From Lachnospiraceae bacterium P6A3 (lineage in GTDB: Bacteria; Bacillota; Clostridia; Lachnospirales; Lachnospiraceae): a stretch of 64,000 nt of DNA. The notes below the pieces were generated by a model, which made no database searches, had not been told where the DNA came from, and was given only the letters and a program-made list of their open reading frames with translations. The stretch is from positions 312,911 through 376,910 of the forward strand of contig KL370861.1 in assembly GCA_000702085.1 (NCBI GenBank). The letters run 5' to 3'. Both the position numbers and the translations under genes were made by a program. This document shows, in pieces, positions 14,622 through 19,090 of the stretch. Numbering within the stretch: the first letter of the stretch is position 1; every line of letters starts with the position of its first letter.

Positions 14622-14637
14622 TCTATGGTTCACGGAA

Positions 14638-14666
14638 GGACCCTGTACTATTCAGGGTCCTTTTTT
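14638..14666 (+). terminator. Rho-independent terminator of pnp
   Basis: GGACCCTG / CAGGGTCC with a seven-base loop, followed by TTTTTT. Confidence 0.92.
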
Positions 14667-14880: not shown

Positions 14881-14914
14881 CGGACGTCGTCAAATCGACT
14901 CAAAATTCCGAATA

Positions 14915-15173
14915 GGGCTATAATTTCCGAGGAAAGGCATTGGATTATAGCCCGTATGCCCCAAAAGTCCCGCGGTTTCGCATGGAAGGGCTATAATTTC
15001 CAAGGAAAGGCATTGGATTATAGCCCGTATGCTCCAAAAGTCCCGCGATTTCGCATGGAAGGGCTATAATTTCTGAGGAAAGGCATTGGATTATAGCCCG
15101 TATGCTCCAAAAGTCCCGCGATTTCGCATGAAAAGGCCATAATTTCTGAGGAAAAGGCAGAAATTATAGCCCC
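14915..15173. repeat. 73-bp tandem repeat array, each unit a GGGCTATAAT palindrome
   Basis: Units begin at 14915, 14988, 15061 and, partially, 15134, an exact 73-base period. In each full unit GGGCTATAAT is matched by ATTATAGCCC 25-35 bases later (10 perfect pairs), followed by a spacer with CCCGCG and TTTCGCATG. In the last unit the stem sequence changes on both sides (ATAATTTCTG with CAGAAATTAT), keeping or extending base pairing, which suggests the structure is selected. The rest of the gap up to 15281 shows only the ribosome-binding site of the next gene. Confidence 0.9.
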
Positions 15174-15281: not shown

Positions 15282-16196
15282 ATGTTTGGCTATACGACAG
15301 TGAATAAACCCGAAATGAAGTTCAAGGAGTACGACCTGTATCACTCGTACTACTGTGGCCTTTGCAGTGTTCTTAAGAAGAAGTTCGGCCTTACGGGCGA
15401 ATTCACACTTTCTTATGACGGTGCGTTTCTGTGTTCACTTCTCTGTGATCTGTACGATGCTCAGGATGAGATCTCAGAGAGAAGATGCGCAGTTCATCCC
15501 GGGGTAAAGCATGTCATAAGGACAAATGTCGTAACTGACTATGCTGCGGATATGAATGCTCTTATGGCGATGTTCAAATGTCAGGATGACTGGCATGACG
15601 ATAAGAAGCTTTCGGGAAAGATCATAGCGGGACTGTTAAACGGCAAGACAAAGTCACTTCGCGATAAATATGCGGATAAAATTGCGGTCATCACCAAAGC
15701 AATCGATGACATGAACGAGATTGAAAAAAGCGGAAAGCCCGATCCCGAGGGCATGGCATTTCTTTTCGGCAAATGTATGAGTGAAGTCTATGCATATAAA
15801 AACGACGAATGGGAGAAGTATTTAAGAGTATTCGGAGACAGGCTCGGAAGAGTGGTGTATCTCATGGATGCTTATGAAGATGTATATGCCGATGTAAAAA
15901 AAGGCAGATACAATCCCTTTTCCGATGTGTATGAAAGATCCGATTTTGAGGGACTTGCAAGAGAGATGATAACAGTTCATCTCGAGGAAGCATGCGTGGC
16001 TTTTGAAAAACTCCCTCTCATCGAAAATGTGGATTTCCTCAGAAATATTCTGTATTCCGGAATATGGATCAGATTTAATATTGCAGCCGGCAAAAGATCG
16101 GGTGCATCATCCGTAGAGGTTTCGGATAACGAAGACCGGAAAGACGGGCCGGATAAAACCGATAAAGACGGTAAGGAAGAAGGAGGACAGTCATGA
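15282..16196 (+). CDS. DUF5685-like protein with terpenoid-synthase-like Asp motifs
   Basis: 304 residues, conserved in Clostridia beside J-domain genes; no established function. The N terminus has [17 protein letters not shown]. Two Asp-rich motifs stand out: CQDDWHDDK (about 98-106; DDxxD) and [17 protein letters not shown] (about 194-210). The second closely parallels the DxxED...RGR...P motif of squalene/phytoene synthases, and the predicted all-helical pattern fits that fold. Cysteines cluster in the first 75 residues. The last 30 residues are charged and look disordered. The ATG follows GGAAGG. The stop overlaps the J-protein start (ATGA). The enzyme assignment is my inference; the family name is moderately sure. 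Confidence 0.8.
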
Positions 16197-16906
16197 CGGA
16201 TCCTTACAGGGTTCTCGGAGTTTCTCCCACAGCTTCCGAGGATGAGATAAAAAAAGCATACAGAAAACTCAGCCGTATGTACCATCCCGATTCCAACATG
16301 AACAAGTCGGAATCCGAGAAAAAGATGGCAGAGGAAAAATTCAAAGAGGTTCAGACCGCTTACGAAGATATCATAGACGGGAAGGTTGATCCGAGAGTTT
16401 ACAGAGGAGGTTCTTCATCCTCTTACGGTCCCGGTTCTTCAAGAAGCAATTATTCGAATACATACCGCAGGCAGTACAGTGCGGGAGGGAGCAATTCTTC
16501 ATCGTATGATAATACCGATGTACATCTGGAAGCGGCAGCGAACTTTATAGCCAACGGATACTTAAGAGAAGCCAGAAATATTCTCGACAATATAGATCCT
16601 TCCACAAGAACGGCAAAATGGTATTACTACAGTGCAATTGTCTATGCAAGAACGGATCAGAAGTCACAGGCCATATATCATGCGAGAGCAGCAACCTCAA
16701 TGGAGCCTTCCAATTCGGAATATTCGGTATTCTACGATTATCTGACAGGCGGTTCTTTCACCAGAAGTACACAGGATGGTGCAGCTTCCTATACAGGATG
16801 GTACAATGACAGAAGAAACACATACGGATACGGTGCTTCGAATGTAACCGGATGCTGCAATACCTGTATTAACCTGATAGTGTGTGCATCCTGTTTCGGC
16901 TGCTGA
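16193..16906 (+). CDS. J-domain (DnaJ-like) protein with TPR-like region and Cys-rich tail
   Basis: 237 residues. Residues 3-65 form a J domain with the HPD motif (RMYHPDSN), which stimulates Hsp70 (DnaK) ATPase. A Ser/Gly/Tyr-rich linker (75-105) follows, then a TPR-like helical hairpin region ([40 protein letters not shown]). The last 20 residues hold five cysteines ([17 protein letters not shown]), a possible membrane-associated or metal-binding tail. It lacks the zinc-finger and C-terminal domains of DnaJ, so it is a specialised co-chaperone, probably working with the DUF5685 protein with which it overlaps by four bases. Confidence 0.88.
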
Positions 16907-16932
16907 CGTATTTTCCCGAAAGGAGAACGATC

Positions 16933-17391
16933 ATGGAAAACGAGATTAAAAAACTCAGAAAATCGCTTATGGCAACTCAGACCATCTGTATTCTGATGCT
17001 GGTTGTGCTTTTGGGAATGATGGTCGGAATCCTTCAGATAGTCAGGGTGTTCGGCGAATATAAGTCCGATATAGATAAAGCATGTGAGCTGGTAAGGGAA
17101 TTGAAGAAAGCCGATATCCCCCAGCTTGCGGAAGATATTCATACAACCTCCGAAGCAATAAATGCGGTGGACTGGGCCGATCTTTCCGAAAGACTTAATG
17201 AAATGGACCTTCAGGGAATAAAGGAGACCATTGATTCACTTGATCTTGAGCAGATAAATAATACGCTCGGTCAGCTTGATCTTGAGGAGATAACTCAGAC
17301 GCTTAACGAACTTGATGTGGAGAAGATCAACGAAACCATGGATGATATCCAGGCGGCACTTGAAAAACTTGATAAGTTCGGATTTTTCTAA
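16933..17391 (+). CDS. Membrane-anchored protein with five 12-residue repeats
   Basis: Function unknown. 152 residues from ATG at 16933, behind AGGAG. One membrane segment near residues 17-40 (TICILMLVVLLGMMVGILQI) leaves the rest on one side of the membrane. Residues about 78-137 are five 12-residue repeats, such as LDLEQINNTLGQ, LDLEEITQTLNE and LDVEKINETMDD; a 12-residue period is not a plain heptad coiled coil. It is the third gene of the DUF5685/J-domain operon and ends at a terminator. It may be a scaffold or membrane tether for that pair; this is inference. Confidence 0.85.
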   Translation: MENEIKKLRKSLMATQTICILMLVVLLGMMVGILQIVRVFGEYKSDIDKACELVRELKKADIPQLAEDIHTTSEAINAVDWADLSERLNEMDLQGIKETIDSLDLEQINNTLGQLDLEEITQTLNELDVEKINETMDDIQAALEKLDKFGFF

Positions 17392-17410: not shown

Positions 17411-17446
17411 AAACGGCTTTACTCCGAAAAGAGTAAAGCCGTTTTT
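17411..17446. terminator. Bidirectional terminator between the repeat-protein gene and nrdG
   Basis: ACGGCTTTACTC / GAGTAAAGCCGT, 12 pairs with a CGAAAA loop, A-rich on the left and TTTTT on the right, so it can serve both convergent genes. Confidence 0.92.
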
Positions 17447-17461
17447 ATATGTACGAATATT

Positions 17462-17992
17462 TTATCTGAGATTGTTCTCATCACACAGGATTGTTTTTCC
17501 TTCTGCCAGAGATTTCTGAACATCTATAAGTCGCTGATTTTCGCTTCCGCGGAATTTAAGTGAGAGATTCTTTTCACGGATGTGGAATTCTCCGTCGACT
17601 ATTACGTCTAAGAGAGGAAGAAGACTCTTAACGATCTCATCCGTCTTCGCCCATTCGAGAATATCCGTTTCGTAAGTATATCCGCTGTAAAGCCAGATGG
17701 TTTTCTCCGGAAATTTCTCGCGGAGTTTTTTTGCAAGCGAGAAAACAAAAGGACGGTTTTCGGGTTCCATGGGTTCGCCGCCCAGGAATGTAAATCCGGA
17801 GATATAGGAAGGTTCCATTGCACGAAGAATCTCTTCTTCAATCTCTGCGGTATAAACATCGCCGTATTTGAAATCCCAGGTCTCTGCATTAAAGCAGCCT
17901 TCGCAGTGGTGACGGCATCCGCTTACAAAAAGCGATACCCTTACTCCGGGACCGTCCGCCACATCAGATTTTTTGATCATTCCGTAATACAT
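17462..17992 (-). CDS. nrdG: Anaerobic ribonucleotide reductase activating protein
   Basis: Radical-SAM activase that installs the glycyl radical on NrdD; 176 residues. The [4Fe-4S] motif is CRHHCEGC (CxxxCxxC) in SLFVSGCRHHCEGCFN, followed by the glycine-rich TFLGGEPMEPENR motif. nrdD is not inside the window, so the activase is separated from its reductase here. A good promoter lies just upstream on the minus strand and AGAGGA precedes the ATG. Confidence 0.95.
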   Translation of the reverse strand: MYYGMIKKSDVADGPGVRVSLFVSGCRHHCEGCFNAETWDFKYGDVYTAEIEEEILRAMEPSYISGFTFLGGEPMEPENRPFVFSLAKKLREKFPEKTIWLYSGYTYETDILEWAKTDEIVKSLLPLLDVIVDGEFHIREKNLSLKFRGSENQRLIDVQKSLAEGKTILCDENNLR

Positions 17993-18144: not shown

Positions 18145-18157
18145 TGTGATAGTCACA
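18145..18157. promoter_or_regulatory. Short palindrome TGTGA-TAG-TCACA
   Basis: A 13-bp perfect palindrome between nrdG and the next gene, about 60 bases upstream of a TATAAT at 18214-18219. It could be a regulator site for the downstream gene; the arm spacing (3) differs from a CRP/FNR site (6 or 4). Confidence 0.3.
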
Positions 18158-18280
18158 AAAAAATGCGGATTATTGTTTTATATTGTGAATATTATTGAAT
18201 CAGTTTCCTATACTATAATGATTTGCAAAGCATGTTTTTTTCCGAGGTGTTTCGGAGTTTCCCTTATGAGGAGTTCGTTT

Positions 18281-19090
18281 ATGAAATTGAATTACGGCAA
18301 GACAATATACACTTTCCGGTTCGGCGGAGAAGCTATGACTGTTAATAACATCGTTCAAGCATGGCTTACCGCAAACCGTTTTTCGTCGGTAAATAATTTC
18401 GATGAAACATATTATTATAACTATGATGCCTGGTACGGAGACAGATGTTTTCAGTATGCGATCGAGGGCGATATCATAACTGTTTATGCATGGACTATCA
18501 GTATCAAAAATAAATTCGTAATGCTTGATTCCGGTGCGCTCAACAATATGAGCGGCAATGCATACAAAGACCTTCTCAACACTCTTTTCTCGGAGATCAC
18601 CGCTAACTGCGCTCCGAACCCTTCGCAGAATATCGTCGCACCTCAAGCCTCTGCTCCCGCACAGAATACTGTAGAACCTCAGTACACAGCCCCCGTGCAG
18701 AACAACGAAGCACCTCAGTACACAGCCCCCGTGCAAAACACCGCAGTACCTCAGTATACAGCCCCTGCGCAAAATCCCGCAATGCCTCAGTATACTGCTC
18801 CCGCACAGAATCCCTACGCCGGTGTGCCTGATTCTGCTCAGTTCACTGATGTGTTTGAAAAAGATATATTGGATAAAAACTCACAGCTTTGCAACATAGG
18901 TTTCATATTATCGATCATCGGATTATTTATATCCATGTTCGGAATGATGTATGGTTTTTTCATCTACTTTATCGAGATATATTTTGCATACAGGGGATTG
19001 AAATCCTACGTAAAGGGCAGGGCAATCGCAATCTTCATTCTCACGGGAATTTCGATATTGATCATTATTCTGAAGCTGGTTCTGCGTTAA
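18281..19090 (+). CDS. Membrane protein with Pro/Gln repeat linker, unknown function
   Basis: 269 residues from ATG at 18281, chosen because GAGGAG lies seven bases upstream; farther upstream starts lack a site. Three parts: an N-terminal globular domain (about 1-110, FRFGGEAMTVNNIVQAWL, WYGDRCFQYAIEGD), a linker of four 12-residue repeats with PQYTAPVQN cores, and two C-terminal membrane segments (NIGFILSIIGLFISMFGMMY and IFILTGISILIIILKLVL). Such soluble domain-linker-two-TM proteins are common in Clostridia without known roles. A TATAAT at 18214 may be its promoter. Confidence 0.8.
   Translation: MKLNYGKTIYTFRFGGEAMTVNNIVQAWLTANRFSSVNNFDETYYYNYDAWYGDRCFQYAIEGDIITVYAWTISIKNKFVMLDSGALNNMSGNAYKDLLNTLFSEITANCAPNPSQNIVAPQASAPAQNTVEPQYTAPVQNNEAPQYTAPVQNTAVPQYTAPAQNPAMPQYTAPAQNPYAGVPDSAQFTDVFEKDILDKNSQLCNIGFILSIIGLFISMFGMMYGFFIYFIEIYFAYRGLKSYVKGRAIAIFILTGISILIIILKLVLR
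18662..18805 (+). repeat. Four coding 36-bp tandem repeats
   Basis: Four units of 36 bases starting CAGAA/CAAAA, encoding the 12-residue Pro-Gln-Tyr-Thr-Ala-Pro linker. Units 1 and 2 are nearly identical at the DNA level, so copy number could vary between strains. Confidence 0.9.

Follow-up and report, generated by a model that had tools for sequence, protein, structure and literature searches.

The DUF5685 protein encoded in the window, a 64,000-nucleotide stretch of the genome of Lachnospiraceae bacterium P6A3 (contig KL370861.1), has a predicted class I isoprenoid-synthase fold with two nearly invariant Asp motifs, and its gene is conserved beside that of a partner with a cysteine-rich C-terminal tail. 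The best explanation, to which we give a probability of roughly 40%, is that DUF5685 belongs to the class I isoprenoid-synthase superfamily as a divergent enzyme and acts as an S-prenyltransferase on tail cysteines of its J-domain or J-less partner. This reading draws on sequences and predicted models, and its parts differ in strength: DUF5685 very probably works through Mg2+/diphosphate chemistry and probably acts on or with the Cys tail, while transfer of a prenyl group to cysteine is a more tentative proposal. The family, PF18937, is without assigned function, and the literature mention of DUF5685 that we found is an item in a list. Now that the family has a superfamily, a partner and a proposed acceptor, a single assay could test its function directly.

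The gene lies at 15282-16196 on the plus strand and encodes 304 residues that match PF18937 (E 8e-89; 298.1 bits, gathering score 26.7; residues 1-265). Members occur in gut and rumen bacteria, throughout Bacillota and also in Thermotoga maritima, and were present in 20 of the 199 genomes searched; one match (L019), near which no partner was seen, has an in-frame TGA and looks decayed. The first-pass annotation had described an apparently all-helical enzyme resembling squalene/phytoene synthases (SQS/PSY) and had proposed structure prediction as a check. The predicted fold is almost certainly the terpenoid/isoprenoid-synthase helical bundle and not some other fold, and the all-helical description of this trans-prenyltransferase fold stands except for one beta-hairpin. 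Among the matches listed, the structural neighbors of the model are mostly E-polyprenyl synthases and MoeN5, at 8-16% identity in the alignments listed; squalene/phytoene synthases are absent among the 50 neighbors listed. No Foldseek match reached E <=0.001, a PDB sequence search gave a best E of 0.67 and nothing relevant, and neither the PF00494 nor the PF00348 HMM matched the protein at E up to 1.

Two Asp-rich motifs had been pointed out near residues 100 and 195, in the order expected, and both are there: DDWHDD is residues 102-107, and the second stretch ([17 protein letters not shown]) begins at residue 196. D102xxxD106 (15585-15599) sits at the end of helix 83-107, and Y193xxD196xxxD200xxxD204...N211 (15858-15914) on helix 178-206, which we take to be the places expected for FARM and SARM; from the order of helices in the model, the two conserved motifs appear to lie on facing helices. 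Our alignment has 125 rows, with the window entered twice, and 117 distinct sequences. D102 is found in 125/125 rows and D106 in 124/125, the lone motif-Asp exception being an Asn at position 106 in L010, and E148 (15723-15725) and each named residue of the second motif are invariant (125/125). The second-motif pattern is present in all 117 distinct sequences and in three of three very divergent members (L018, L020 and L021), which were examined apart from the alignment and retain all of these residues and the three invariant cysteines described below; the genomes of L020 and L021 each contributed a further stretch, L022 and L023. The conservation on which the earlier reading had been staked is therefore near complete for both motifs.

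A DxxxD first motif with a DxxxD second motif is typical of squalene/phytoene synthases, and D102xxxD106 and D196xxxD200xxxD204 give DUF5685 the same pair. Compared by hhalign with an SQS/PSY profile (20 proteins, the squalene-synthase loci L132 and L159 left out for faulty ORF choice), DUF5685 scored 38.0 (probability 51.9, single-target E 1.5e-4) over residues 157-213, which span the second motif and the region that follows; the highest of 60 column-shuffled controls scored 26.8. With a PF00348 profile (21 proteins; L145 yielded no ORF) it scored 22.8 (probability 1.6, control maximum 21.4) with both motifs aligned, D102xxxD106 falling on the DDxxD of PF00348; PF00348 against SQS/PSY scored 27.2 in the same test. 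Together with the missing HMM matches, these scores support the reading of the motifs and leave membership of PF00494 or PF00348 unsupported, so the proposed squalene/phytoene-synthase likeness survives as a local profile match over the second motif and not as membership of PF00494. For S-prenylation, the fold, the motifs and the likeness to the SQS/PSY profile and, weakly, to that of PF00348 count in favor; the hhalign probabilities and the Foldseek result count against.

The IPP-binding signature GGKxxR is found in 0/117 DUF5685 sequences and in 21/21 PF00348 proteins, an absence that also favors S-prenylation. Upstream of the second motif, pattern search found a Gln in 20/21 PF00348 and 15/20 SQS/PSY proteins, and this position is Tyr in 117/117 DUF5685 sequences. 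DUF5685 thus differs from PF00348 and MoeN5 in HMM match, GGKxxR, this Tyr and sequence identity, and from PF00494 in HMM match, invariant cysteines and a Cys-tailed partner. Its own genome holds no PF00494 match and one PF00348 match, a possible source of the prenyl donor, which adds to the case for S-prenylation. The better profile match to SQS/PSY, the DxxxD form of both motifs and the PF00348 genes near three loci would also suit an enzyme that makes or modifies a free isoprenoid, by head-to-head or terpene-like chemistry, with J/Hsp70 partners that fold or localize it. We consider such a small-molecule role improbable, as PF00494 does not match, no further isoprenoid-pathway gene was noticed to recur next to DUF5685 in an unsystematic look at its neighbors, and neither the Cys tail nor the fused form would be explained. 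A non-catalytic scaffold that binds prenyl diphosphate and links a membrane Hsp70 system to the supply of isoprenoids would accommodate the Tyr and the missing GGKxxR, but near-invariance of every motif Asp is typical of catalysis, and we rate this role slightly lower again.

The gene that follows, overlapping DUF5685 by four bases, encodes a 237-residue protein (16193-16906, plus strand; PF00226 E 5e-20) that agrees with its first description as a J-domain/TPR protein with a Cys-rich tail. Pfam places the J domain, with its HPD, at residues 3-62 (16199-16378). The predicted model (pLDDT 75.5, pTM 0.41) continues through a disordered linker to a TPR-like helical unit (16511-16747) and a low-confidence terminal helix, residues 218-234, that bears cysteines. 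The tail itself, residues 221-237 (16853-16903), reads [17 protein letters not shown]. In an alignment of 79 J proteins, which excludes L116 and L118 because trimming had truncated them, its cysteines are conserved at positions 221 (99%), 225 (90%), 231 (91%), 234 (92%), 235 (84%) and 237 (87%).

Pairing of DUF5685 with a Cys-tailed partner is conserved. The named loci are the best 80 among at least 585 matches, and in all 80 a J protein with a Cys tail adjoins DUF5685 on the same strand; these loci are by title mostly Lachnospiraceae or other Bacillota, and some may duplicate genomes of the 199-genome set. The same arrangement is found in 36 of 47 genomes of the phylum and relative sets (L001 and L009, both the window, counted once). 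Elsewhere a short J-less Cys-tailed protein adjoins DUF5685 (L011, L018, L020 and L021; some are TPR-like by sub-cut-off HMM matches) or lies on its other side (L036), the Cys-rich tail is fused to DUF5685 itself (L015), or a Cys-tailed gene lies some kb away (L016 and L017, the latter having just 4 Cys among the final 40 residues). Because the J-less partners and the fusion keep the tail, it is more constant than the J domain; a passing remark at first reading, it proves the most constant feature of the partner. The pairing, the J-less tails and the fusion all speak for S-prenylation, and the three of 47 loci (L019, L048 and L050) where no Cys-tailed partner was seen near DUF5685 within the stretches examined speak against it.

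Such tails were also counted among neighboring genes. At least five Cys in the last 40 residues were found in 15 of 270 gene models from 20 enlarged loci, of which 13 are partners or the fusion and two are others, L184_2 and a membrane protein of L177 that is zinc-ribbon-like. Across the 80 named loci (best 80 of at least 585) the count is 70 of 894 models, 62 of them J proteins and eight other genes; a crude longest-ORF rule used to call neighbors missed some partner genes, which accounts for the remaining J proteins. In this same set the J proteins carry 5 to 8 Cys in the last 45 residues and a mean of ~0.4 in the remaining chain. A DNA pattern for CCECMGGD occurs in six of the 199 genomes, once each and always among the 20 with DUF5685, a co-occurrence in favor of S-prenylation that spans three genera and so represents few independent events. 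Searching seven genomes with one tail-bearing protein gave only E values of 0.038 or more. The tail ends in Cys in 23/80 named loci and has Cys within the last five residues in 32/80 (best 80 of at least 585 matches), compared with 27/37 and 35/37 in another set; as these counts differ, no single C-terminal rule holds for the tail, a point against S-prenylation.

We propose a model where the two Asp motifs of DUF5685 would hold a prenyl diphosphate through Mg2+ and one or more tail cysteines would accept the prenyl group. Cysteine is the most likely acceptor because DUF5685 has no isopentenyl-diphosphate motif and is encoded together with a Cys-tailed protein. Once lipidated, the tail would hold the partner at the membrane, where the J domain of the partner would in turn tether an Hsp70. 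DUF5685 has three cysteines, C25xxC28 (15354-15365) and C69 (15486-15488), each present in 124/124 rows with letters and placed by the predicted model on helix 14-40 and, for C69, in the hairpin; together these may coordinate a metal to which the acceptor thiolate binds. Support for the earlier proposal, of a co-chaperone in the service of the enzyme, is no stronger than for the reverse, modification of the co-chaperone by the enzyme.

With its conserved tail positions and these invariant cysteines, a metal or Fe-S role remains the main rival. DUF5685 and the Cys tail would then bind or pass a metal or cluster on a reused isoprenoid fold, with J/Hsp70 driving transfer much as HscB/HscA do for IscU. 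The tail fusion in L015, Hsp70 and GrpE in some clusters and, in several loci, a flavodoxin-like gene (one confirmed) downstream of the pair could be read in the same way, and the position-fixed tail cysteines of the 79 rows, being equally suited to a metal site, weigh against S-prenylation. However, the near-invariant Asp motifs would be needless for a role with metal only, PF00348 genes are close to Cys-tail genes in two loci, tail spacing seems by eye to differ between clades, and the tail is modeled as a low-confidence helix and not a knuckle. On balance we regard a metal role as unlikely, though ahead of the small-molecule role.

ComQ and PalQ, trans-IDS-like enzymes that prenylate peptides (PMC13290415; PMC10853753), offer a precedent for S-prenylation by DUF5685, and ComQ is encoded beside its own substrate (PMC4008528). 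Both the isoprenoid-synthase fold and a gene position beside a possible protein or peptide acceptor are shared by ComQ, PalQ and ChrPC. According to a 2026 review, all characterized trans-IDS-like prenyltransferases act on Trp, ComQ, PalQ and ChrPC included, and the Gln before the second motif is tied to Trp recognition in ComQ-type enzymes (PMC13290415); the first point stands against S-prenylation. ComQ lacks the second Asp motif in these accounts, whereas DUF5685 retains both, replaces the Gln with Tyr, and has three invariant cysteines and a Cys-tailed co-chaperone partner. Prenylation of a residue other than Cys, such as the Trp/Tyr just before the tail (W203/Y204), would follow the Trp precedent, and across the 79-row alignment Y204 never varies and W203 hardly does. 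Yet the Trp is missing from J proteins of other clades (L003, L049 and L035, for example) and the Gln associated with its recognition is Tyr in DUF5685, making this the least probable of the alternatives and a very unlikely one.

The wider neighborhood bears on S-prenylation through Hsp70 and polyprenyl synthases. An Hsp70 gene lies directly 3' of the J gene in L100 and L126 (by Pfam) and in L108 (by sequence start only), and beside the DUF5685 cluster in L175 and L178, whose genomes, G198 and G030, carry another Hsp70 gene elsewhere. In L209 (genome G054), a row of genes encodes GrpE, Hsp70, a Cys-tailed protein, a protein with a weak glycine-zipper match and a polyprenyl synthetase, on the other strand from DUF5685, with the synthetase ~6 kb and Hsp70 ~8 kb away. 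There and in L186, the Cys-tailed gene is one gene from a PF00348 gene and some kb from DUF5685. Among 20 enlarged loci, three, belonging to two families of genomes, have a PF00348 gene within ~7 kb of DUF5685: L185 has it on the same strand, two genes after the DUF5685-tail fusion (L015/L185), and L186 and L187 on the opposite strand. A rough estimate puts the chance expectation at ~0.2, given that a genome holds one or two such genes (22 matches in 20 genomes). As Pfam scans covered chosen neighbors only, three of 20 is a lower bound, and this proximity is suggestive only. The Hsp70 neighbors and the PF00348 genes near Cys-tail genes favor S-prenylation; that only three of 20 loci have a PF00348 gene nearby does not.

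Other neighbors vary. Judged by sequence start, 11 of the 80 loci (best 80 of at least 585) have a flavodoxin-like gene after the J gene (L078, L080, L081, L091, L095, L112, L116, L118, L121, L124 and L129), which is confirmed in L081 (Flavodoxin_3). In L191 (5746-8711), DUF5685 lies between an M50-peptidase-match gene and one for a 321-residue protein with a Cys-rich, SPASM-like-looking end, followed by a polytopic protein that by impression resembles dolichol kinases; neither of these last two has a Pfam match at E up to 0.1. A phage or plasmid origin was considered and rejected: scans of viral contigs gave no relative, and two plasmid and two "phage" records match. One matching plasmid record holds a housekeeping cluster at the site. 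L208 (MT835652.1), filed as a bacteriophage, holds DUF5685 (Pfam), a Cys-tailed J gene and, by eye, a folylpolyglutamate synthase-like gene, content that makes the record look bacterial.

Palmitate on cysteine string protein and farnesyl on some eukaryotic Hsp40s are membrane anchors, and the eukaryotic enzymes of protein S-prenylation are built on a different fold. Both cysteine string protein (DNAJC5; PMC4447612) and farnesylated Hsp40 (PMC8262983) are described as J-domain proteins with lipid-carrying cysteines, as proposed here, but are eukaryotic and modified by other enzymes. The first-pass annotation knew of no system of such composition, and our literature search likewise found no described bacterial system uniting a lipidated J protein with prenylation by an isoprenoid-synthase fold. 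It is tempting to speculate, with somewhat more hesitation than for S-prenylation itself, that DUF5685 is the first bacterial protein S-prenyltransferase, trans-IDS-like, giving a dedicated Hsp70 machine that works at the membrane, a convergent counterpart through Bacillota of farnesylated Hsp40 and cysteine string protein. If the acceptor is Cys, bacteria would own a route to protein S-prenylation on a fold unlike that of the eukaryotic enzymes, and a lipid-anchored Hsp70 system. The results on fold and pairing hold whichever acceptor applies.

A third gene (16933-17391, plus strand) encodes, as first described, a one-pass membrane protein with 12-residue repeats: 152 residues with one hydrophobic stretch and five repeats from residue 79 (17167-17346; TRF period 36 nt at 17238-17327), and no Pfam family above cut-off. 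It most likely starts at ATG 16933, behind AAAGGAG, with 26 bases separating it from the J stop; only an upstream GTG start would make it overlap the J gene, by 25 bases. Hence, of the four-base overlaps noted earlier, that of DUF5685 and J stands and the second does not. Homologues with one hydrophobic segment occur in 10/80 named loci (best 80 of at least 585), so the membrane tether is rejected as a core part; within the proposed three-gene neighborhood the pair is conserved and the third gene is clade-specific, and "three-gene system" is too narrow a term. Certain other clades encode a multi-pass protein whose similarity to DUF2232 is sub-cut-off, or a membrane protein whose end is weakly zinc-ribbon-like, and many loci have neither type.

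Terminator-like hairpins, as consensus matches only, follow the three-gene run (17411-17444, plus strand) and the gene upstream of DUF5685 (14634-14664); six are found in the region compared with 2.6 expected. A 73-bp tandem repeat (14914-15159; 3.4 copies, 94% matches) ends ~120 bases upstream of the DUF5685 start and has a 71%-identical match elsewhere in the genome. Further downstream, 18146-19090 encodes a protein that has Pro/Gln/Thr-rich 12-residue repeats (36-nt period at 18662-18803), is hydrophobic in its C-terminal part and matches nothing in Pfam at E up to 0.1. Convergent with the operon lies a gene for a radical-SAM-type protein (17462-17992, minus strand; Fer4_12 E 3e-48, Radical_SAM E 3.5e-7), and the hairpin between them is terminator-like on both strands.
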